Source: Dehalococcoidia bacterium
GTDB lineage: Bacteria; Chloroflexota; Dehalococcoidia; GIF9; AB-539-J10
Length of the DNA: 34,364 nucleotides
Assembly (NCBI GenBank): GCA_003552465.1
Contig: PULQ01000098.1
Coordinates: forward strand, 1-34,364
Direction: 5' to 3'
Shown here piece after piece: positions 4,689-25,191 of the stretch. The number at the start of each line of letters is the position of its first letter. Position 1 is the stretch's first letter. The notes under the pieces are model-generated. The model saw only the letters and a list, made by a program, of their open reading frames with translations. It did not search any database and was not told the origin of the DNA. Made by a program: the position numbers and the translations under genes.

Positions 4689-5684
4689 CTATCCTGTTAC
4701 AAGCGCCCATATCCTCTTGAGTGGCAACTCAGCCTTCAGGACATCGTCAAACCGGTCATAGTACTTGAACACTTCCCCGAGGAGAGTACCCTGGTCCCAT
4801 AACCTGATGGCAAAGAAAGCATCGCTTGCCTCTTTGATACATGCGCCGTTAAACCCACCCCATGCCACTAACAGTCCTTGTTCCGCCCTGACGCGCGACA
4901 TCACTCCCTGCAATTCCCTGAGGACCCGAACATCCACTTGAGAAGAGGAAGACTTGACCTGCACGCAGAGCCAGGGTTTATTGAACCCCAGAGGGCCTGA
5001 TGCTGCGAGGATATCAATACCCCCATCCGGGCCAGGGGATGACCTTCTGGTTACATAGCCCTGTGCGTGCAGGATCGCCTCGACCAGCCTGGCAAAGTCA
5101 TGTCCCCTGAATCTGGTTCCGATATACTTGGTAATCTGGTCTCTGGCTGACTCTTCTATGTCTACCGTCTCTTCGGTGATGACCTCCTCCGGCTCCTCTG
5201 CCTCAGGTTGCTCCTCTGACTTCAGCAGGCTCAGAACTCTGTTCTCGGCATCGTGTCGCTTGATTCGGCAGACTGTCATGAAAGCTCCCAACGAGTAAAG
5301 AATGTCCTGGTCAAAAGCAGAACGCCTTATCGTCTTCAGCCATCTGACTCGACGAATGTGCTTGATGTTATCGGCAAGCTCTTTGTACTCGTATGTGCCT
5401 TCAACCCTACCAATGGCTATGGCCGCTTGGGTCTTAAGGGGTAGTGCCACCAGGTCCCCAACCTGTATCTCACGCGCGAATCTCCATACCTGCCCAACCT
5501 CGTTGGCGATCTGATTCTTCTTTGCCTTTGGATGGATCTGCGTGTACAGCCTGGTAAGTTCGCTCCTACTCTTCAGGCGCGAGAGGTCTGGCAACTCGTT
5601 CCAGCCGATCGTCACAACGTCGTTATCCAGCGCCCCCTGTTCCTGCTCTCCATGTCTTCCTGCCCTTACCAGCCATAAGCTCAT
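4689..5684 (-). CDS. Mrr-type (type IV-like) restriction endonuclease with N-terminal PUA-like domain
   Basis: A 331-residue protein. Residues about 190-290 form the Mrr catalytic domain: FARLVEAILHAQGY, then PGPDGGIDILA with catalytic Asp224, then CVQVKSS with Gln242 and Lys244 (the D..QxK form of the PD-(D/E)XK site typical of Mrr). An acidic linker (about 155-180) joins it to an N-terminal domain beginning LWLVRAG and containing 'GDLVALPLKTQAAIAIGRV', a pattern suggestive of a PUA/EVE-like barrel that could sense modified bases (inference). Mrr-family enzymes usually cut methylated DNA. The start at 5684 is set by AGGAGG 5 bases upstream. It follows the type IIG gene by 24 bp, so the two are likely one transcript. 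Confidence 0.88.
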   Translation of the reverse strand: MSLWLVRAGRHGEQEQGALDNDVVTIGWNELPDLSRLKSRSELTRLYTQIHPKAKKNQIANEVGQVWRFAREIQVGDLVALPLKTQAAIAIGRVEGTYEYKELADNIKHIRRVRWLKTIRRSAFDQDILYSLGAFMTVCRIKRHDAENRVLSLLKSEEQPEAEEPEEVITEETVDIEESARDQITKYIGTRFRGHDFARLVEAILHAQGYVTRRSSPGPDGGIDILAASGPLGFNKPWLCVQVKSSSSQVDVRVLRELQGVMSRVRAEQGLLVAWGGFNGACIKEASDAFFAIRLWDQGTLLGEVFKYYDRFDDVLKAELPLKRIWALVTG

Positions 5685-5708
5685 AGACACCTCCTGTGCA
5701 TAGCAGTG

Positions 5709-8700
5709 CTATCGCTCTGATGCTTCCTCCACCAGGGCTATCTCTTCCTCGGTTAGCCCGTAGAGCTTGCATACAATCGCATCAACTGACTCCTGTAGCA
5801 TCTGGAGTTCTTGCCTGAGCCCCGAGACTGCTTCGACAATGTGTTGCTTCTTGCGCTCGAACTCGTTATGGTCTTTGGGTACTATAGGCATGTCCCTGAT
5901 CGAGGACCAGAGAACTCCCTCATGATTGGTGAGGATGTCCCCGATGGTCTTGAGCAGATCCTTATCTCCTGTCAGCGTAACAGCCCTTCTGCCCTTGCCG
6001 TGAAGTCTCAGTTCTGCCTCACCCGAGGTTACTGAGACCTCACCAACCCTGCTCAACACAAACTGCGGCTTTTCCAGATCCTGCTCATGCTCGACTTCGA
6101 TCCCGGGATGAGTCCTGAGAGAGAATCTGTTCTCAGGAGATAGGCACTCAGCGATGGACTCGAGATCAAGATCGGGCAGAGGGTCCTTATCTTTCAGACG
6201 GGTCAGTCTTGTCCCGCGAGAATACCTTGAGTAGGCGGCAAGTTCGCCCATCTTACTCCTGATCTTCGTGACCCGCTCCACAATGTCATCGTGTAACCTG
6301 ACATCTTTGGGGTCATCGAAATCTATGCGGCGTATGGGGATCCTAGAAAGCGGCGTACCTACATACTCTCTTGCCTCACCTTTCGCCTTTCTGGTCTCGG
6401 AAAACCAGAAATCCATTAGCGTGGAATTCAGGATGGCCAAAACATATGCGAGTCTTATGCCTTGAGTCGGACAACCGACGAAAAACACGTCCGACATTGC
6501 ATACAAGGGTGTGCTGTCAAACGCGAATGTGTTGCGGGGCGCTCTGTTGGGCGTAACAAGCTTCTCTGTATCGAAGATTGTCTGCTCCCTCTCGCGATGC
6601 AGCCTGTACCACGGGTAATCCTCTCCATAGGTGCTGAGTCGATTCTCCAGAATCGGTCGAAACTTCTCTAAGTGGGCTCGGATAGCAGGATACTTGTGAA
6701 TGTCCGTATCGTTTGTCGTGTAGATGATGAACCGCGGATTCTCCGAACTCCTGTTGACGTAATAGCGGTCAATATCTGAGTTCTTACAGAAAGGCTTCAC
6801 CAACGCCCTCTCCTCATCAGATAGGTTCAGTGCGTTCAGTTCACCTTCGTTCAGAACAAAGATGCCGTCGCCAACTCTGATGTTGTGGCGAGAAAGCAAT
6901 TCCTGGGGTATGAGTTTGATGTTCTTGCTACTAACTCTGTCTGCTCCTGACAGTATCCCTTGACTAACTCCGCAGATGTCACCGAGGGGGAACCCTTGTC
7001 GACTGATCTTACCCTGGATCTTCTGAGCCTCACCACTCTGTGTGAAATGCCATGCCTTGTGACTCAAAGCCCCTTGCTCTGCCGTGTTCAAGAATACCTG
7101 GATGTACTCGTCCTGCCACTTGTCTCTATCAATGTGCTCCTCAATATGTCGAGTTAGTAACCTTAGCTTTTCCCTGATCGTATCTCCTTGCAGGTCTTGG
7201 GGACCAGCCACGACCCGGACAATCTTGATTCGGTTGTCGTCCCTTTCAGCTCTTCTGCCCGCTGAACACTTCTCCAATGTGAACACCATGTTGTGCTGCC
7301 CCTTGGCGTGCTCGAATACCTTCACATCTTGGAAGAATATCATCTCCCTGATCTTTGCATTTTCCAGGATGTAGGTGCGTAACTTGGAGGCGCCGTCTGC
7401 AGTTGGCCAGTAGTCGGTGGTTATGAAGCCTAGCTTGCCTCCTTCCTGTAGTTTGGAGAGCCCTAGTACAATGAAGAAATACAGGTAATCCATCTTACCC
7501 TGATAGAAGTTTCGCCAATACGGAAAACGCGCCAGAGTTGCTCGAAAGAGCTCCTTGTTTCCCTTTTCTCCCACATAAGGGGGATTGGCGCAGCAGTAGG
7601 AGAACTCGCCATCGCAGATCTTCTTGATCTTCTGATACATAACCTGCTTCTGGCTTTCCACGGGCAGCAAATCTCGTGTCTGGTCGAAGTTACAGTCCTC
7701 AGGCTCAAGAGCAAGCTGCTCGGGATTGTAGAGGGACAGAGCATCAACCGGGATGACACCCATAGCCGGAGTGCCTTTTGCCACGACCCCTTTCTTCATC
7801 TCCATCATGCGCTTGATAGTGGGAGTAAGCTGGATCAGAAGGTTCACCTCAGTGATGTAATAGGGAAAACGAGAGATCTCGCTACCGAACACACCAGTCA
7901 GAATGCAGGTGCGAAGGTCCAGCAGATCATCGAAATCGTTGCTGTCTATCCTGGATTCCTCTCTCATGCGCCTAACCGCCTCAACCAGGAAACCGCCAGA
8001 ACCCGTGGCAGGGTCGAAGATAAGCCTTGGCTTACGCATCCCTTCTCTGTATGCAAAGAAATCCTCGTCTCTGGTGAACCCTACTCTGTTCCAGATGAAC
8101 TCAACTATCTCCCTCGGCGTGTAATACTGCCCCTTCTGTTTCTTATCTACCTTATCGATATACGCCTCATAGATTGAGCCCAGAACATCCTGATCGAGCT
8201 TTCCCAAGTGGAAATTTGAGAGTTCATAAAGCGTCTCAATAAGGGTCTCGTCTGAGGGTTCATACCAGGTGTAGTTGTTGTCCACATTGAAGAGCCATCG
8301 ATAACGCTCAGCTGCCAGTTGGAACGCGTATTTCAGTACCCGGCGAATCTCCCTGTTGAAGCTCTCATACCACCTCGCGAGGCCCCCGTCGTACAGGGTC
8401 TGATCAACAAACCCGATGTCTTCCCACGCCCTGGCTAGAAGCAGCTTGGTCATCGCGAAATACCCGATCCGGAAGAAGAAGAGGTCCAACGCTCTCCCTA
8501 ACACGCTCGGGGGTTGGGCATCGAGAATCTGGCAGAACGTCTGCAGTGTCACCACCTCCATCTCTCTTCCGCGCTCGATTTCCGAGGCAATCATCTCCAC
8601 CTCTTGGGCAATGGCGATTGCCCTTTCCGGCTCATGTTCCTTCAAGAAGAGAAGCTCCTCTCTTCTTGAGCGTACATCATCGTAGATACGTTCTACTACG

Positions 8701-9347
8701 TAGTGCAGACGCCTAGTCAGGAGGTCGATGTTAAGTAGTTCGCTTCCCGTCCACTGCTTGGCCTCCGCAACTCTTCGGAGTTTCTGCTCAATCGTTAACG
8801 GGGTGTACTGGAAAGACTGGACGAACCGGAGAAAGCGTCTGGTGTTCTGACTCTCAAGAACACCAGTTCGGTTTCCTTCAAAGTCCCTGTGCAGTTCGAC
8901 GAAGCTGAAGCTGAACGATTCTATCGGTTCTGAGGATTCACACGTATATACCCCAAGGTCGCGCATATTGACCAGAATCCCGTACTTGAGGTCCTCCATC
9001 TCGATGTAGCTCTTGATCTGCCCATGCCATTTGGAGAGGTCGGCCGTGTCCATCCCTTTGCAGTCAAACAGGAACGGGTGAGTACGGGTATCGGCAGGGA
9101 CGAAATCGGGAGTGCGTCCGCCGGCTACTGCTTCCTCAACACCAACAGTCTCACCAAGGGTGAACCCGAGTATCTGCTCCAATAGCTTAGGGAACAGTAT
9201 AGGCGCTATGAGCTTTCTCTCGTCAGCCCAGCCGCCGGAGACATACTCAAGATAGGTACTGGCTTTGCCGTCTGAGTAGCGCTTGTAGTCTACAGAGTTG
9301 AGAATGGATACAGTTGCCCTTATGGTGTCTATCTCTGTCTGTGCCAT
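5709..9347 (-). CDS. Type IIG restriction-modification enzyme (fused nuclease, N6-adenine methyltransferase, target recognition)
   Basis: A 1212-residue single-chain restriction-modification protein. The N-terminal nuclease has the PD-(D/E)XK layout: TPD with Asp81, then FDCK with Asp95 and Lys97. A helical region follows. The methylase starts at KKQKGQYYTP (about 402), with SAM motif DPATGSGGFL (445-454) and catalytic NPPY (588-591), the gamma-class N6-adenine arrangement. The last ~450 residues resemble the TaqI/Eco57I-type specificity region (the block reading PRFIIYTT and later 'LNSTLMDFWF'). The length fits type IIG enzymes. BREX PglX is an alternative for the methylase part, but no other BREX genes are nearby and PglX lacks this N-terminal nuclease. 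The ATG at 9347 has AGGAGG upstream. It heads the block running left to at least 3930. Confidence 0.9.
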   Translation of the reverse strand: MAQTEIDTIRATVSILNSVDYKRYSDGKASTYLEYVSGGWADERKLIAPILFPKLLEQILGFTLGETVGVEEAVAGGRTPDFVPADTRTHPFLFDCKGMDTADLSKWHGQIKSYIEMEDLKYGILVNMRDLGVYTCESSEPIESFSFSFVELHRDFEGNRTGVLESQNTRRFLRFVQSFQYTPLTIEQKLRRVAEAKQWTGSELLNIDLLTRRLHYVVERIYDDVRSRREELLFLKEHEPERAIAIAQEVEMIASEIERGREMEVVTLQTFCQILDAQPPSVLGRALDLFFFRIGYFAMTKLLLARAWEDIGFVDQTLYDGGLARWYESFNREIRRVLKYAFQLAAERYRWLFNVDNNYTWYEPSDETLIETLYELSNFHLGKLDQDVLGSIYEAYIDKVDKKQKGQYYTPREIVEFIWNRVGFTRDEDFFAYREGMRKPRLIFDPATGSGGFLVEAVRRMREESRIDSNDFDDLLDLRTCILTGVFGSEISRFPYYITEVNLLIQLTPTIKRMMEMKKGVVAKGTPAMGVIPVDALSLYNPEQLALEPEDCNFDQTRDLLPVESQKQVMYQKIKKICDGEFSYCCANPPYVGEKGNKELFRATLARFPYWRNFYQGKMDYLYFFIVLGLSKLQEGGKLGFITTDYWPTADGASKLRTYILENAKIREMIFFQDVKVFEHAKGQHNMVFTLEKCSAGRRAERDDNRIKIVRVVAGPQDLQGDTIREKLRLLTRHIEEHIDRDKWQDEYIQVFLNTAEQGALSHKAWHFTQSGEAQKIQGKISRQGFPLGDICGVSQGILSGADRVSSKNIKLIPQELLSRHNIRVGDGIFVLNEGELNALNLSDEERALVKPFCKNSDIDRYYVNRSSENPRFIIYTTNDTDIHKYPAIRAHLEKFRPILENRLSTYGEDYPWYRLHREREQTIFDTEKLVTPNRAPRNTFAFDSTPLYAMSDVFFVGCPTQGIRLAYVLAILNSTLMDFWFSETRKAKGEAREYVGTPLSRIPIRRIDFDDPKDVRLHDDIVERVTKIRSKMGELAAYSRYSRGTRLTRLKDKDPLPDLDLESIAECLSPENRFSLRTHPGIEVEHEQDLEKPQFVLSRVGEVSVTSGEAELRLHGKGRRAVTLTGDKDLLKTIGDILTNHEGVLWSSIRDMPIVPKDHNEFERKKQHIVEAVSGLRQELQMLQESVDAIVCKLYGLTEEEIALVEEASER

Positions 9348-12740: not shown

Positions 12741-15161
12741 CTAGTCTCTCCAATCATAGGCCAGATTACCGCACTTGCACCTGATCTTGCTCTCCACACT
12801 ATCGAAGTACTTAGTCGAGATTATCGTCTCGCAGTCGTTGCAGTAGAATGTCCCGATAGTCTCACAGATGCCTTCCCACATCACTGCCAAGTCTTCAACA
12901 CCTGCATTGAACTTGCTGTCGTGCGAAGCGATGTTTGCAATGAACATTGGCATTCTCTTCAACCTCGGAATATCAGCTATCTCCTTCAAGCCACTCCCCT
13001 TCCTTGAAACGCGACTATGTACAGCATCCAATAGCTCAGAAGCCATCCTCTTTTCGTTATGTTCATTGTACCGAAAAGCTACCTGAGCATCTATGTTGTT
13101 GGAAATCTCCTTCATCACTCTTTCAGTGTAAATCCTCATATCATTGCCAAGTCCATCAATGTTCTTATCCCGAAACTTGTTCTGGATTCTTTCTCTCAGG
13201 TCTGCCACTCCATGTTCAATGCTCGATCCATTGTCTTCTGACCACACAAACCGTCGAATCAGCCAACCTTTGCCCTTGACCTCACTGGATACTAACTCAA
13301 AGAACTCCTGCTCATGTGTAAGCAACAAGATCTGATAGTCGCTGAACTCGCCCGTCAACAACTGAGTAAACCTTGTTCTATGCGCCCTATCGAAACTGGA
13401 AATCACGTCATCAAGCACAATGAACCTATTCTCTTTGTTGAACGCTCTTACAGAAGCCAGGAAGAAAGATAGGCCAAGACAGTTGACGTGGCTTTCGCTC
13501 AGATATGCGCTTGGTCCCTTTTTGGTCTCATCGAAGAATCTATACTCGATTGAGATTCCGGCCAAGTCATTGTTCTTATCTTTGACTGTAACCAAGTTGA
13601 TGTCCTCAACTCTTTCGCCCGGGTTCATTGCGGTATAGTAATCATTGATGTTGGCGGAGAACATGGTCAGAAACGAGTTCAGGGCCTGTTCTTGTCTTCT
13701 GATGAGATCGGCAAAGAGGGCCTCAAACGTCACTTGTTGCCTTGTCAACACTGCCTGCATCTTGTCGATCCTCTGATACTGCTTGTAAGCGGTGACTGAT
13801 TGGAACAGCTTGGTGTAGATCTGAAACTGGACATTGGACGTCTTACTCTGGATAAGCGCTGCTGCCGTTTCCTGCGCCTTCTTGACAAGAGCCAAAACCC
13901 CCGCTTTATCAATACGGACTTTGCTCGGTTCCTGAACCGGAGTTTCGTGGTTCAGGTCCTTCTTCAGTTCATCAGAGAGCGTCTGCAAAGCGGTTCTTAC
14001 ACCCACAACCTTGTCAGCAAGCTTGCTGTTCTGTTGCTCCTTGAAACCCCTCTCTTTCAGCAATTCATCAACCGTACTGATGTTACCTCCCAGGGCATCC
14101 TTCAGATCCCGCCCCTGCTCGTCTGATCTGTCTTTCTCTCGCTCCAGTTCCTCCAGTTCTTTGACCCTCTCATTCAACTCCGCAATCAACTCGATCTTGC
14201 TCTTTTCTTGTCGGCACAGAGGGCAGTAGTCATCTTGCACAACATCGTTGACCAAGATGCTTTGTCCCTCCTTAAGCAGGGCGAGGAGTTGAATCTTCCC
14301 AAGCTTGCCTGGGTCTTTTCGAAGCGCCGTATAGGTCCTGTGGTATACTTGGTAGCTTGCGTTTATGGCATCAACATTGCCAGCAACTTCATCTAAGCGT
14401 TCTCCAACTCTCGTCTGGAAACTGATTTCCTCAAGTAGAGCAGTGTCTTCCTTGGTCTCAATCGTCACTAAAGCCTCTTGAATGTCCTGCAGCGATTTGA
14501 TTGCCTTGCCAAGTTTCAATGGTCTTATCAACTCATTGGCTCCTGCAAAGAGCTGTTTGTTGGTATAGGCGTTTTGACCCAGGTTTTCGAGGACAACTGC
14601 TTGTTGGGCGTTCTTCTGATTATCATAGTTGGCTGATTTGATGCTCCGTGCAACTCGTCCCGCGGACTTCTTCAGCAGATCTCGAACGTCGGCCACCTCA
14701 CCAAAACCGATGATTCTTTGCAGGGTCTTCAGTCTCTCGGTCTTCGGGGCAATGATGAACCTAACCAAGTCTGTATAGCGAAGGATCAGGTTCTCCGATT
14801 CACTGGCGACCATGTACTCATCGAACTCATCTGATCTGTTGGAGTCCGATGTCCTGAATGAACTGTCTAAGGATTTTTTCGAGTCTAACGTGCTATTGGA
14901 ATACTGAATCGCGATGTAGGCATCTTCTTCATCCGGAATGCGTAGATTGCGTAACGCTCCCCTTCCTTTCGTTGACTCTATCTCTTCACTGACCAGATGC
15001 TGAATACCGTCTGAATAGTACCACTCAATGGCGTCAGTCAAAGAGCTCTTTCCTGAGCCATTCTCACCAAACACCAGAACTGAACTACCGTTCAGGTCTA
15101 GGGGGGGAGATCGCCTGATGCCCCTGATCCCGCTTATGTCGATTGATCTAATCTTCACCAT
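12741..15161 (-). CDS. SMC/RecF-like ATPase with zinc hook and C-terminal zinc ribbon
   Basis: An 806-residue ABC-type ATPase. The Walker A is GENGSGKSS (residues 32-40). A long helical, coiled-coil-prone arm runs to a CPLC zinc hook at 313-316 and returns. The second half has an ABC signature-like LSESHVN (about 550), Walker B 'FIVLDDVISSFD' (about 578-590) and the H-loop LLLTHEQ. The last ~35 residues add a CxxC...CxC zinc ribbon. This layout matches the SMC-like subunits of anti-phage systems such as Lamassu, and also AAA_13-type proteins. GGGGAG precedes ATG 15161, which overlaps the upstream small gene by 14 bases. It is the last gene of a three-gene operon with a GIY-YIG nuclease, so I infer that the ATPase senses DNA and controls the nuclease. 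Confidence 0.88.
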   Translation of the reverse strand: MVKIRSIDISGIRGIRRSPPLDLNGSSVLVFGENGSGKSSLTDAIEWYYSDGIQHLVSEEIESTKGRGALRNLRIPDEEDAYIAIQYSNSTLDSKKSLDSSFRTSDSNRSDEFDEYMVASESENLILRYTDLVRFIIAPKTERLKTLQRIIGFGEVADVRDLLKKSAGRVARSIKSANYDNQKNAQQAVVLENLGQNAYTNKQLFAGANELIRPLKLGKAIKSLQDIQEALVTIETKEDTALLEEISFQTRVGERLDEVAGNVDAINASYQVYHRTYTALRKDPGKLGKIQLLALLKEGQSILVNDVVQDDYCPLCRQEKSKIELIAELNERVKELEELEREKDRSDEQGRDLKDALGGNISTVDELLKERGFKEQQNSKLADKVVGVRTALQTLSDELKKDLNHETPVQEPSKVRIDKAGVLALVKKAQETAAALIQSKTSNVQFQIYTKLFQSVTAYKQYQRIDKMQAVLTRQQVTFEALFADLIRRQEQALNSFLTMFSANINDYYTAMNPGERVEDINLVTVKDKNNDLAGISIEYRFFDETKKGPSAYLSESHVNCLGLSFFLASVRAFNKENRFIVLDDVISSFDRAHRTRFTQLLTGEFSDYQILLLTHEQEFFELVSSEVKGKGWLIRRFVWSEDNGSSIEHGVADLRERIQNKFRDKNIDGLGNDMRIYTERVMKEISNNIDAQVAFRYNEHNEKRMASELLDAVHSRVSRKGSGLKEIADIPRLKRMPMFIANIASHDSKFNAGVEDLAVMWEGICETIGTFYCNDCETIISTKYFDSVESKIRCKCGNLAYDWRD

Positions 15162-15357
15162 CTCGCTCCCCGATGTTACCGAGTTCTTCTTGAAGCAGTT
15201 GCTCCATTGCATTCCGGATGTTGGTGTCGGTCAGTCTCTTCTCACTGTGCAACGAGATTAGCTTCTCAACTATCTTACTGTCCACCCCTTCAACATCCCG
15301 AATCCCTACGAAGAACTCATCAACTACCACTCTGCCGCTCTTTGTTTCATCAGTCAT
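15148..15357 (-). CDS. Small 69-residue acidic linker/adaptor protein
   Basis: An uncharacterised 69-residue protein between the GIY-YIG nuclease and the ATPase genes. It is mostly helical, with a C-terminal half (IRNAMEQLLQEEL) likely to form an amphipathic helix. AGGAGG lies about 6 bases before the ATG. Its stop overlaps the ATPase start by 14 bases, a sign of translational coupling. The position in the middle of a nuclease/ATPase operon suggests a bridging or regulatory subunit, comparable in position to the small middle subunit of Lamassu-type systems, though much shorter than I would expect for LmuC. No sequence motif supports a specific function. Confidence 0.75.
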   Translation of the reverse strand: MTDETKSGRVVVDEFFVGIRDVEGVDSKIVEKLISLHSEKRLTDTNIRNAMEQLLQEELGNIGERDGED

Positions 15358-19123: not shown

Positions 19124-20689
19124 TCACGCCTCGCGGATCTCCAGTATCCTGTCAACCCGGAAGACTCTCTCTTCTTTCCGCTTGAGGCAGAAGGCGCGCA
19201 CGCCGATGTAGCTCTTGCCGGAGTACTCCATCTCTCCAACTACCTCTGGTCTGATACGCCTTCTTGACTTCTCATCATTGGGTTTTAGGTATGTTATGTC
19301 GAGCAGCGCCTCGTGCTCGATTGCCTGCCTGATCACCTCAACCTTATCATCAACGGGGAGGGCGCGTGCGGCCTTTCCGTATTGATACTTCGTCAAGAAC
19401 TTGACCACCCGGTAATCGGTCCAGATATGCTTTTTCAGAATCGGCTTCTTCAGGACAATGCCATCCAGCGTAGTGCATCGGCTCAACGCCACATAGGTCT
19501 GCCCGTGAGCGAACGCCCCTCGTCCGATATCAATGATCACCCTGTCGAACGTCTTGCCCTGGCTCTTGTGGATGGTCACCGCCCAGGCCAGCATAAGTGG
19601 GTATTGCTTGAATCTGCCGATGACTTCGGACTCAAGATGACCCTCCCGGACTGAGAAACTGTAGATCTCCCAGGTATGAGGCGTAATGTCTACAGTCTGA
19701 CCGTCGGCCAGTTCAGCCACTATGATGTCTTCGCCATTCTCTCGGATCACATCGATGATCTTCCCAACACTGCCATTAACCCAGCGACCATAGGGGTCGT
19801 TACTGACCATCATGATCTGCGCTCCCACCTTTACCACAAGGTCAACCGATGTGGGGAGATACTCGGCGGTGAACCTTCCTTCGATCTGTCCGGTAAAGGT
19901 ATAGGGCGTAGCATTCAGCCTTGCCAGCTCCCCAGTGTTGATCTCCTCAGCCAGCTTGTTGACTGTGGTCAGATAGACGTAGAAGTCATCGGCGGGTGGC
20001 TCGAACTCCGGCATGTGTCTGTCATTGAGGAGAGCTAACTCCTCCTCAGTAACGGAGTTGTTACGGATGGCGTTGAGCAGGTTGATGAAGTGCTCGTCAC
20101 GCTGGCGATAGACCTTCTCCAGTTCCACGAACTCCATGTCCAGCGAATCAAGCACCCTGGCGCTGTAGAAGTACGGAGTCTCGTAGACCGACCCGAACAC
20201 TTCCTTCTCAGTGCCTACGACAACGGGTGGTAACTGGTAGAGGTCGCCGATGAACACCATCTGAACCCCGCCGAAGGGCTTGCTGGCCCTCGGCCCATTG
20301 AGCCGTAGAAACGCATCCACGCAGTCCAGCAGGTCCGCTCTTACCATGGAGATCTCGTCAATGACAATGGCATCAAGGTTCCTGTAGATGCTCCTGGTCT
20401 CGGCATCAGGGTGGGTCTTCTTGACCTGGTCAATGGTTATGCCAGGCCTGAACCTGAAGAAGGAATGGATGGTCTGCCCCTTGACATTGAGGGCGGCAAC
20501 GCCAGTCGGAGCTAGCACCGCCACCTGCTTCTTCGTGGCATGCTGAAAGTAGTCCAGCAGTGTCGATTTGCCCGTTCCTGCCCGCCCTGTGATGAAGATG
20601 TTCCTGCCGGTGTGCTCCATGGTATGCAGAGCATGTTCAAACTGCTCGTTCAGCTCTATTGTCGCCTGTCTACGTCGTGGCTGCTGCAT
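19124..20689 (-). CDS. Pif1-family helicase with C-terminal WYL domain
   Basis: A 521-residue superfamily 1B 5'-3' DNA helicase. Walker A is GRAGTGKS (residues 35-42); motif Ib region 'LAPTGVAALNV.GQTIHSFF'; Walker B 'DAIVIDEISMV'; motif III 'FIGDLYQLPPV'; motif V 'AWAVTIHKSQGKTFDRVI'; motif VI 'GQTYVALSRCTTLDGI'. The last ~70 residues (about 452-521) are a WYL domain: 'AIEHEALLDITYLKPN', 'RIRPEVVGEMEYSGKSYIGVRAFC', then 'R.FRVDRI'. Bacterial Pif1 proteins with a C-terminal WYL domain that contacts single-stranded DNA are known (for example from Thermotoga), so the fusion is not new. A consensus -10 ends 10 bases before the ATG, and there is no ribosome site, implying a nearly leaderless message. 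Confidence 0.93.
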   Translation of the reverse strand: MQQPRRRQATIELNEQFEHALHTMEHTGRNIFITGRAGTGKSTLLDYFQHATKKQVAVLAPTGVAALNVKGQTIHSFFRFRPGITIDQVKKTHPDAETRSIYRNLDAIVIDEISMVRADLLDCVDAFLRLNGPRASKPFGGVQMVFIGDLYQLPPVVVGTEKEVFGSVYETPYFYSARVLDSLDMEFVELEKVYRQRDEHFINLLNAIRNNSVTEEELALLNDRHMPEFEPPADDFYVYLTTVNKLAEEINTGELARLNATPYTFTGQIEGRFTAEYLPTSVDLVVKVGAQIMMVSNDPYGRWVNGSVGKIIDVIRENGEDIIVAELADGQTVDITPHTWEIYSFSVREGHLESEVIGRFKQYPLMLAWAVTIHKSQGKTFDRVIIDIGRGAFAHGQTYVALSRCTTLDGIVLKKPILKKHIWTDYRVVKFLTKYQYGKAARALPVDDKVEVIRQAIEHEALLDITYLKPNDEKSRRRIRPEVVGEMEYSGKSYIGVRAFCLKRKEERVFRVDRILEIREA

Positions 20690-20896: not shown

Positions 20897-21055
20897 ATGG
20901 AGATCATACTCGTCAAAGAGAAGGAGACACCGGGTACCTGGAGGTACAAAGAGAAGAAAGAAGACCGTCCTATGACGGTCTACTTGACGAAAGAGCAGGT
21001 CAAAGAACTGGGCAACCCGGACTCCATCAAGATCACGATAACAGCGGCGAAGTAG
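20897..21055 (+). CDS. 52-residue uncharacterised protein upstream of the metallopeptidase
   Basis: The frame begins with ATG at 20897, preceded by AAAGGAG at good distance, and ends at TAG 21053-21055. The protein is Lys/Glu-rich, beginning MEIILVKEKETPGTWRY, and ends in a strand-like KITITAAK. A central TVYLTKEQVKELGNP looks like a strand and short helix, so it could be a tiny beta-alpha-beta domain. Its stop is only 5 bases before the ATG of the metallopeptidase gene, which lacks its own ribosome site, so the two are likely coupled. It is divergent from the Pif1 gene. The 190 bases upstream (20705-20896) show only a 23-codon open frame and no convincing gene. Confidence 0.65.
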   Translation: MEIILVKEKETPGTWRYKEKKEDRPMTVYLTKEQVKELGNPDSIKITITAAK

Positions 21056-21060
21056 AGTAG

Positions 21061-22005
21061 ATGGTGCAATCAAAGACGGTAGAGATTGCCGGCGTTGGAC
21101 CGGTCCTCTTTGAGCGCAGCAGAAAGGCCCGGCGGTTGATCATCTCCGTGAGGCCATCGGCACAGGTTCGTGTCGCTGTGCCCTATGGATCATCCTTCCA
21201 GAGAGCCGAGGAGTTCGTGCACGCCAAGGTGGACTGGATACAGGGGCAGTTGGTCAAGATGAGGGCGCATTCACAGAGCGAAGGTTCTACCAAGCCTGCC
21301 GTCGACATCATCGACAAAGAAGAAGCCAGACGGAAACTCATAGCCAGGCTGGAGTACCTGGCTGCCCAACACGACTTTAGCTATAACAAGGTGTTCATCC
21401 GCAATCAAAAGACGAGGCTGGGCACCTGCTCCAGCAAGAACAACATCGGCCTTAACATCAAGGTTAGCTGCCTGCCCCAAGAGCTAATGGACTATGTGAT
21501 TCTGCACGAGCTTGCTCACACCAGGGTCAAGAACCACGGCAAGGAGTTCTGGATGCTGATGGATAAGCTGGTGGGAGACGGAAAGGCTGAGGCAAAGAGG
21601 GTACGTGAATACAGCATCCGCCATCTTCTGGGGTCTCCGCAAATGCCGGTCGGCCAGCCAACGACGAAGGAGGGAAGAGTGATAGAAAGCTATGAACTGT
21701 TGGCCAGTGCCATATTCTGTACGCCGGTCAGAGCAGCGGACATTCGTACGCTCAAGGAAACCGCGGACACTCTAATCGAGCAGCTGCCCATTGGCCTGCC
21801 GCAGTATCACTCCCGCAACCAGGCTGTTCTGCGTGCCCTGTTCGGGCTGGACGGTGAGCCCAAGAGTCGAGCCGAGATCGGCAGCGAGGTGGGGCTATCG
21901 CCAGAGAGGATCAGGCAGATAAGGAATCAGGCGTTGCGAATGCTCAGACATCCATCAAGAAGTAAGGAGCTATCCAGGCTGATTGTGACGGCTGGACCTA
22001 GGTAG
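21061..22005 (+). CDS. YgjP-type metallopeptidase fused to a sigma-70 region 4 domain
   Basis: A 314-residue protein with two clear parts. Residues 1-190 are a YgjP/DUF45-type zinc metallopeptidase: N-terminal beta-rich domain with 'RRLIISVRPSAQVRVAVP', the block 'RNQKTRLGTCSSKNNIGLN', and the active site HELAH (149-153) with third ligand His159 in 'KNHGKEFW'. Residues 255-306 match sigma-70 region 4: AVLRALFGLDGEPKSRAEIG, then a GLSPERIRQIRNQALRMLRH helix-turn-helix like that which contacts the -35 element. Residues 190-255 are a linker. The frame is continuous, so this is one protein and not two. No ribosome site; probably coupled to the 52-residue gene. The fusion suggests a peptidase targeted to promoters or a transcription regulator. 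Confidence 0.88.
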   Translation: MVQSKTVEIAGVGPVLFERSRKARRLIISVRPSAQVRVAVPYGSSFQRAEEFVHAKVDWIQGQLVKMRAHSQSEGSTKPAVDIIDKEEARRKLIARLEYLAAQHDFSYNKVFIRNQKTRLGTCSSKNNIGLNIKVSCLPQELMDYVILHELAHTRVKNHGKEFWMLMDKLVGDGKAEAKRVREYSIRHLLGSPQMPVGQPTTKEGRVIESYELLASAIFCTPVRAADIRTLKETADTLIEQLPIGLPQYHSRNQAVLRALFGLDGEPKSRAEIGSEVGLSPERIRQIRNQALRMLRHPSRSKELSRLIVTAGPR

Positions 22006-23150: not shown

Positions 23151-24995
23151 CTAAGGCCACATGAGCTTCACTAGTTTGAGCAGGACCAGTTGGCGTTCGT
23201 CTATGGCCTCCTTGCCATATACATCATACGGTCTGAAACCGAGTCCGTATTTGCTGTTGAACTCAAGGAACCTCTTCTTATTGTGATAGAGATCGGGGTG
23301 AAGAGTCTGGTTCCAAAGTAGTGAACCTGCGTAGGTCCTCATCTTCTTCGCGAACGGCTCATTGCTTGACGCTTCATTGTCTTTGCCCCTCAAGAGAAGA
23401 AGCGCTCCCAGCCTGTTTCTTTCCAGACGAAACAGCTCATCATCATTGCCAAACAGCGTTCTGTTCTCGTCGTTATTGGCTAGTATATGCTCAATGTGAA
23501 AGCCGTAAACTGGCCCGGTGTTCCTAGCTGTGTTGTAGAAGTCGGCGGTGGACATGCCGGTTTCTGACGCGATGAAGCGATCGACTCGAGCGAAGAAGTA
23601 TCGGACAAACTTCTCTCCAAGAGTAAGTCTGCCGGCATCTTTGAAGAAGTTCCAGTCGTAAGGATCATCAACCTCAGTGCCCTTCGCCTGGGAAATATCC
23701 TTGATGATCTGAGAATTGTACACTTCATCGATCTCGTCGAGTGGTTTGCTCCTCAACCTGGTTGTGAGATCAATCAAACTCTCTGTGAAACTGTTACTAT
23801 TGTATGAGTCTGTCAGTTGTAAGAGCGAGAAGTGCTTGTCGAAGAGGCGCGAGATCAGCTTGACCTTCTCTTTGTCCATTGCGTCATTGAGAGCACAGGC
23901 TGACAGGATGAGCAAGGCTTGCCTATCCTGCCCATTAATGCCATTGTAGTAAAGATACGGACCATACTCAGAGTCAATGGTCTGTGACTCGTTCATGATT
24001 CTTACGTAGAGATCGGCGTAGTAGCTGAGATCATGCGTGATGAACCTCTTCGCTTCTAAGGGATTCTGCTTAAGTCTGATCATCTCATTCCATTTTGGCT
24101 CATAGATGGTCTTGTGATAGTCGCCGTCGAACTCACGGTACTCGGCATGAGTACGAACATACCTGGCCCGAAAGAGCGTGCGAAAGAAGTCATCTACATA
24201 ACTCTCGTCACTACTTTGGATAGCATAGACGTGTTCTTGCCAAGTAGGATGATATGTATCTATCTCTTCCTTCGGGATTTGGCCTAGCAACTTGCCTTTT
24301 AGCACCTCATAGGGTTTCAGTCTCTCACCCCGGTCGTTGATCACCTCGAACACCATAGGGACATCTTGTGTCTCTGAGATATCGATCTGCACCAGCATGA
24401 CCCGCTGCAGGAACCATAACGAGAAAGCCTCTAGTCTGTGTGAATCTGTAAGCTGTGCGCCCAACTCTCGGTCAATCGTATTGTAGTTCTGATATATGTT
24501 CTTGATGCTCAAATCCTGCGAAGGACTCGAACCACGCTTAGCATTGTCATTTAGGTATAGATCCCCAAGGGCTGCCTCTCTGTCGTTATGGCCCATCCAG
24601 TACTCACGCCCAGTCGTGGTCTTGCCGGCAATCCGGTCCGAGATGAAGTCGCTAAGGGGATTCAGCTCGGTGTACTGCCTTGTAAGGTGGTAGAGCTTAA
24701 TGAGTATCAAAGTCAGAGACGTGAACCTCTGTTGGCCGTCAACTATGAAAGTGTGCCCATTGTAGACATTCGTGACGTAGGTATTGAGATAATACCAATC
24801 GTAATGGCTAATGGCTTCCTCATTGGTGTCTCGCTCCTTACGATAGTCTAAGCTGAACCTGTAGAACAGATCCTCTAGTAGCTTTTCAATATGTCCCTTG
24901 GTCCATTTATAGTCACGCTGATAGAAGTCGATGTAATATGGTTTGCCGGTTGAGAAGAGTGCTGTGATGTCACGTTTCTGCGGAAGAATACTCAT
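23151..24995 (-). CDS. GmrSD-like DUF262/DUF1524 restriction protein
   Basis: A 614-residue protein. The N-terminal DUF262 (GmrS-like, ParB-fold nucleotidase) shows the 'YIDFYQRDYKW' block (residues 21-31) and FIVDGQQRFTSL (83-94) with its DGQQR nucleotide-binding motif. Further along, 'FEVINDRGERLKPYEVLKG' is another family signature. The C-terminal DUF1524 (GmrD-like HNH fold) has HIEHILANN near residue 497 and the 'RLGALLLLRGKDNEASSN' block with its Asn residues. Proteins of this kind restrict DNA with modified cytosines (GmrSD) or act as nucleotide-dependent nucleases. Start 24995 is set by AGGAGG and a promoter at 25065-25036; a longer open frame to 25121 is unlikely to be used. It is a single gene, convergent with the gene ending at 22898. 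Confidence 0.9.
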   Translation of the reverse strand: MSILPQKRDITALFSTGKPYYIDFYQRDYKWTKGHIEKLLEDLFYRFSLDYRKERDTNEEAISHYDWYYLNTYVTNVYNGHTFIVDGQQRFTSLTLILIKLYHLTRQYTELNPLSDFISDRIAGKTTTGREYWMGHNDREAALGDLYLNDNAKRGSSPSQDLSIKNIYQNYNTIDRELGAQLTDSHRLEAFSLWFLQRVMLVQIDISETQDVPMVFEVINDRGERLKPYEVLKGKLLGQIPKEEIDTYHPTWQEHVYAIQSSDESYVDDFFRTLFRARYVRTHAEYREFDGDYHKTIYEPKWNEMIRLKQNPLEAKRFITHDLSYYADLYVRIMNESQTIDSEYGPYLYYNGINGQDRQALLILSACALNDAMDKEKVKLISRLFDKHFSLLQLTDSYNSNSFTESLIDLTTRLRSKPLDEIDEVYNSQIIKDISQAKGTEVDDPYDWNFFKDAGRLTLGEKFVRYFFARVDRFIASETGMSTADFYNTARNTGPVYGFHIEHILANNDENRTLFGNDDELFRLERNRLGALLLLRGKDNEASSNEPFAKKMRTYAGSLLWNQTLHPDLYHNKKRFLEFNSKYGLGFRPYDVYGKEAIDERQLVLLKLVKLMWP

Positions 24996-25035
24996 TGCGA
25001 TACCTCCTGTTACGGCGTCAAGGCCTACCATGGCG

Positions 25036-25065
25036 ATTATACCCATGGCCACACGGTTCAGGCAA
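25036..25065 (-). promoter_or_regulatory. Promoter of the DUF262/DUF1524 gene
   Basis: On the minus strand, TTGCCT (25065-25060), an 18-base spacer, then TATAAT (25041-25036). The start near 25029 gives a leader of about 34 bases with AGGAGG. Confidence 0.55.
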
Positions 25066-25191
25066 TAGCGCTGATGCGTATGCCACACAACTGATCCGGG
25101 ATCCATGCCTATGTGTGCCATAACGAAGTGGGGGCGTTGACTCTCGGGGCATTAGGTCTTCAGCACGGAGACGGCTTCAATCCATGAGTGG

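Follow-up and report, generated by a model that had tools for sequence, protein, structure and literature searches.

The fused frame and its upstream gene

The window (the whole stretch of DNA analysed here, 34,364 nucleotides) is the entire contig C163 of a 1.8-Mb Dehalococcoidia MAG (G000) that is 87% complete. It carries a frame in which a YgjP-like zinc metallopeptidase runs directly into a sigma-70 region 4, and a short upstream ORF ends 5 bases before the peptidase start (Table 1). The initial annotation had described the frame as unbroken from the HELAH...NHG zinc site into the region-4 helix-turn-helix, and our analysis bears this out: all 314 codons are open and both domains are matched in Pfam. 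Both halves have the high third-position G+C that a coding frame should show, and the motifs HELAH, NHG, PERIRQI and LRHPSRS lie at residues 149, 158, 281 and 295, respectively.

Table 1. Coordinates of the fused gene, its parts and neighbouring genes in the window.
Feature	Position	Strand	Basis or remark
Fused ORF, 314 aa	21061-22005	+	No internal stop in frame; Pfam; C96 paralogue equally open
YgjP-like zinc metallopeptidase half, residues 1-193	21061-21639	+	PF01863, pLDDT, Foldseek
Codon 194, CAA	21640-21642	+	Aligned with TGA stop (3/3 G018 copies) and with CGG in C96 (DNA alignment, translations)
12-codon linker, corresponding to the intergenic gap of the split relatives	21643-21678	+	Equal length in 5/5 copies; pLDDT ~31
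Shine-Dalgarno AAGGAGG, 5 bases before internal start	21667-21673	+	Identical in 5/5 copies, split or fused
Region-4 protein unit, 108 aa, from GTG (21679-21681)	21679-22005	+	PF04545; PDB SigA/RpoD domain 4; free gene in G018
52-aa upstream ORF, MEIILVKEKETPGTWRYKEKK...ITAAK, TAG stop at 21053-21055	20897-21055	+	Recurrent peptidase partner
Pif1-family helicase ending in WYL domain	19124-20689	opposite	Divergent from cassette
GmrSD	23151-25121		Neighbouring defence gene
Type IIG-like R-M protein	5709-9347		Neighbouring defence gene

A fused paralogue is present on a second contig of the same MAG (C96:3292-4236), again as one frame of 314 codons, with 86% protein identity to the window copy. 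Codon 194, where the peptidase half gives way to the linker, reads CAA in the window and CGG in C96, and each of these is two substitutions away from TGA. Since two diverged contigs are thus open with different sense codons at this position, a sequencing slip was rejected as the cause of the join, and it is barely credible that any assembly or sequencing artefact joined two genes, even though the source is a MAG contig and split homologues do exist.

The peptidase half

The match to PF01863 (YgjP-like) covers residues 83-180 (E 4e-35; 122.1 bits against a curated cut-off of 26), and weaker SprT-like and WLM matches overlie the same zinc domain. Both the HExxH signature (HELAH, residues 149-153) and a further zinc-ligand histidine (H159) are present and are conserved in relatives. 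In the structure predicted with AlphaFold from 18 sequences, residues 1-190 mostly reach pLDDT 70-97, and the best Foldseek matches of the peptidase are proabylysin (4jiu) and selecase (4qhi), with jannalysin, Wss1 and the entry 5xbv also matched. The protein shares with the YgjP-like metallopeptidases (PF01863; minigluzincin/SprT/WLM type, i.e. 4jiu, 4qhi and Wss1 5xbn) the HExxH plus third histidine and the fold, but differs from them in its region-4 tail and in having LGTC instead of the family's conserved WGSC. This replacement (21418-21429, residues 120-123) occurs in all copies of the clade that bears region 4, whereas close peptidase relatives without region 4 keep WGSC, and it may possibly have altered peptidase activity. 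Pairwise dN/dS between copies is 0.20-0.34 for this half. One paper (PMC12783615) tabulates YgjP as a UTP pyrophosphatase, as an annotation only. In EPEC, a defence island with restriction-modification genes contains a gene for an M48-type metallopeptidase (PMC12255303).

The region-4 half

The match to PF04545 (Sigma70_r4) spans residues 252-297 (E 3.2e-8; 33.4 bits against a curated cut-off of 24.1), and against the PDB the region-4 profile hits domain 4 of SigA/RpoD with E values as low as 1.5e-15; on these comparisons the tail can be placed firmly in the SigA/RpoD domain 4 family. Residues 236-305 match domain 4 of the principal sigma factor (RpoD/SigA), including the helix-turn-helix and the LRHPSRS end, but the window protein lacks regions 1-3 and has a unique N-terminal part of ~40 residues in place of region 3. 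Within the 314 residues there was no match to sigma region 2 (core binding, -10 recognition).

Structure prediction, which the initial annotation had proposed as a check, gave a pLDDT of ~31 for residues 191-210, so that the linker is predicted to be disordered. The C-terminal part is helical, with values of 43-56 for most of it; these are low because the alignment is shallow. Foldseek returned weak matches of the tail to SigA region 4-beta-flap chimeras.

A free-standing protein bearing sigma domain 4 is likewise found in the SigO-RsoA split sigma of Bacillus subtilis (PMC8103513). SigO, however, works with a separate domain-2 partner, whereas here the neighbour is a peptidase, and no sigma domain of a SigO-RsoA-type partner was found in the 52-aa ORF or in the scanned neighbours. 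The MZA anti-phage system also includes a sigma factor (PMC9523054), and among the PADLOC models the fused protein matched MzaA alone (E 1.7e-4; 39.5 bits against a cut-off of 800 bits, over the region-4 segment only). MzaA resembles the present case in having a sigma-70 region 4 in a defence setting, but its model is ~700 positions long, and none of its partners (MzaB-E) was found among the scanned neighbours.

Split relatives and the conserved region-4 start

Three further copies occur in a congeneric Dehalococcoidia MAG (G018; contigs C176, C39 and C41), and in all three the peptidase and region 4 are separate genes. The peptidase frame ends after LGSP or LSSP at a TGA that corresponds to codon 194 of the window, and 36 bases further on a second frame opens with ATG (C176, C41) or GTG (C39), 5 bases past AAGGAGG, and encodes a free region-4 protein of ~108 residues; the C41 copy has a frameshift within region 4. 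Homologues split at about residue 200 with independent starts, which the initial annotation had named as the sign of a sequencing error, therefore do exist (the split falls at residue 193), but the error itself is contradicted by the two open paralogues of G000.

The stretch AAGGAGGGAA is identical in all five copies (21667-21676 in the window, with the GTG at 21679), and an ATG or GTG start is kept in register after it, in the fused copies as well as in the split ones. When the codons of this CDS are shuffled, 7.7% of the resulting sequences contain AAGGAGG followed by a start in any frame, so the mere presence of such a site is a weak point; conservation of the Shine-Dalgarno across copies is the stronger one. 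A free region-4 protein could on this evidence be produced from the fused gene by internal initiation.

Other relatives locate the natural end of the peptidase. Four genomes (G016, G032, G005 and G009) encode peptidases of 52-58% identity without region 4 that end no more than a few residues from this point, and distant peptidases of other phyla likewise end near it. As the closest of these relatives end near the G018 stop position, that stop approximates to the natural peptidase end.

The 52-aa ORF also travels with the peptidase. It lies upstream of it in C96 (95% identity over the part covered), in G018 C39 (82%) and in G009 (72%, start lost), and a lone copy with only the first few peptidase codons is present on G018 C233. 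It thus recurs in three genomes of the genus (G000, G018 and G009); none of the other 81 genomes sampled from the order contains a relative of it, and it has no match in Pfam, NCBIfam or PHROGs. That two genomes each hold several copies indicates a small cassette that has become dispersed. The initial annotation had noted neither this ORF, nor the Shine-Dalgarno and GTG inside the fused frame (21667-21681), nor the stop at codon 194 in the sister copies.

Selection and history of the two halves

For region 4 the pairwise dN/dS between copies is 0.30-0.53, which together with the values for the peptidase indicates that both halves are constrained. Their substitution histories differ. Comparing the two G000 copies with two G018 copies, sites that group the copies by genome outnumber conflicting sites by 65 to 5 in the peptidase and by 6 to 5 in region 4 (Fisher p 0.003). 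The window and C96 copies are 92% identical at the DNA level in the peptidase and 82% in region 4, and in region 4 C96 shares 89% identity with G018 C176. From these four sequences it seems that the second half has undergone exchange or has evolved at its own tempo. Recombination is not claimed for it, since both halves favour one and the same four-sequence grouping and differ only in the support.

The fused form was found in one genome only

Among the 84 genomes sampled at the level of the order, the region-4 unit is present only in G000 and G018. Its N-terminal part was not found beyond G000 in 393 class-level genomes, a sample that included no G018 match. At ~70 other YgjP loci, in the phylum and beyond, region 4 was found neither in frame nor as the next gene. 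One case of proximity between a peptidase and a sigma factor (G040/L013) was set aside, as the sigma gene is of RpoD type and lies on the opposite strand. Viral contigs yielded no relative of the region-4 protein, and the one viral locus that matched the query was discounted, its match being limited to a sigma region 4. Phage and plasmid records gave peptidase or sigma matches separately, with no place covering 80% of the query. The search for the same two-domain architecture in other genomes, suggested in the initial annotation, thus located the fused form in G000 only, and we found no description of a YgjP-sigma fusion in the literature.

Origin and possible role of the fusion

We consider it probable that the fusion arose by loss of a stop codon between adjacent genes of a small multi-copy cassette. 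The cassette would consist of the 52-aa ORF, the YgjP-like zinc peptidase and a free-standing region-4 protein, and the spacings (5 bases from the 52-aa ORF to the peptidase and 36 bases from the peptidase to region 4) fit a single co-translated operon. At codon 194, TGA would have changed to CGA and this in turn to CGG and CAA. A split ancestor with one stop loss is the simpler history given that relatives of the peptidase stop near residue 190 and that, in each of the copies, a ribosome-binding site already stands before the region-4 gene.

The reverse history, which we regard as unlikely, would have the fused state as ancestral, with the G018 lineage gaining the TGA and the internal Shine-Dalgarno letting the second half survive as a separate gene. 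CAA, CGG and TGA are each one step from CGA, and one C-to-T change would suffice to create the stop. However, a ribosome-binding site would need to have pre-existed at the right distance, peptidase relatives without region 4 stop at about the same place, and the region-4 half has a substitution pattern of its own.

On the preferred reading, a regulator and a peptidase are co-expressed from the cassette and have become fused in G000 through stop loss, with the free region-4 protein still likely to be made: ribosomes would produce both the full-length protein and, from the internal GTG or ATG, free region 4. As the likeliest role we suggest, tentatively, that the region-4 part binds DNA or RNA polymerase and regulates its own cassette or neighbouring genes, and that the tether mainly co-localises two proteins that were already made together, with no new enzyme resulting. 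A more elaborate outcome, which we think doubtful, is that a free-standing, sigma-A-derived region-4 protein serves the zinc-peptidase cassette throughout one Dehalococcoidia genus and that G000, through the retained internal start, makes it both free and covalently tethered to the peptidase, so that a single gene would supply a DNA- or RNA-polymerase-bound protease together with its own competitor.

The initial annotation had proposed either a peptidase brought to promoters or a regulator switched by proteolysis. Both seem to us improbable, whether region 4 would direct the peptidase to RNA polymerase or -35-like DNA for cleavage of a bound protein, or cutting of the linker would free the regulator. 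In favour of such a function, purifying selection acts on both halves, the zinc site is preserved, the recognition helix keeps its ERIRQI, and two paralogues have retained the fused frame while diverging by 14%, which could mean that the fusion is selected. On the other hand, of the genomes searched a single one has the join, the sister copies in G018 manage without a tether, the linker is predicted to be disordered and the region-4 gene retains its own ribosome-binding site and start. In addition, the arginine that precedes ERIRQI in SigA and contacts the -35 element is replaced by P in the fused copies and by T in those of G018.

Decay of the tail, i.e. a sigma fragment without function, appears quite improbable. 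The frameshift in the C41 copy of G018 and the extra changes at the C-terminal end of the window copy would fit such decay, but dN/dS remains at the constrained values given above, 69 of the 108 columns are invariant, and the start and Shine-Dalgarno are intact in all copies. Very improbable, in our judgement, is that the protein is a minigluzincin held on DNA to remove DNA-protein crosslinks, as Wss1 or Spartan (SPRTN) does. Both of these share the minigluzincin-type zinc protease fold and act on DNA-bound proteins, and DNA binding activates Wss1 (PMC4559962); but they are eukaryotic, carry SUMO/ubiquitin and Cdc48 motifs and have no sigma domain. The sequence and fold matches to Wss1, SprT-like proteins, WLM and minigluzincins express a likeness that goes no further than the protease superfamily. 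As a tether, region 4 would be specific for sequence and not for damage, and the G018 peptidase is untethered.

As it stands, the fusion is lineage-specific, and the two domain types that it joins are both known. Formation by stop loss would make it a clean example of an operon becoming a two-domain protein through loss of one stop codon, with the old start kept, and the pairing points to an undescribed free-standing sigma region-4 protein that accompanies a peptidase. Were the fusion to prove functional, the result would be a protease directed to RNA polymerase or to promoters, and we are aware of no precedent with this build.

Neighbouring genes

The initial annotation correctly placed the fused gene beside a Pif1-WYL gene in a defence-rich region, with GmrSD and a type IIG-like R-M protein in the same window (Table 1). 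Elsewhere in the window, 4689-5690, adjoining the type IIG-like R-M protein, strongly matches the PADLOC candidate family PDC-S02 (E 8e-135), and 12741-15212 encodes an SMC/RecF-type ATPase of 823 aa that matches LmuB (Lamassu) models. Neighbours vary from copy to copy with no fixed partner, and several resemble defence genes. A metallo-beta-lactamase-fold protein lies beside C96, and a TIR-domain protein lies 3' of C41; in the latter (L042, 4075-4974), a few kb downstream of the split copy, the TIR is joined to a restriction-endonuclease-like domain. QueC-like genes occur near two of the three G018 copies, C176 and C39 (L041, 3344-4033; L040, 2084-2785), and the one at L041 weakly matches QatC.
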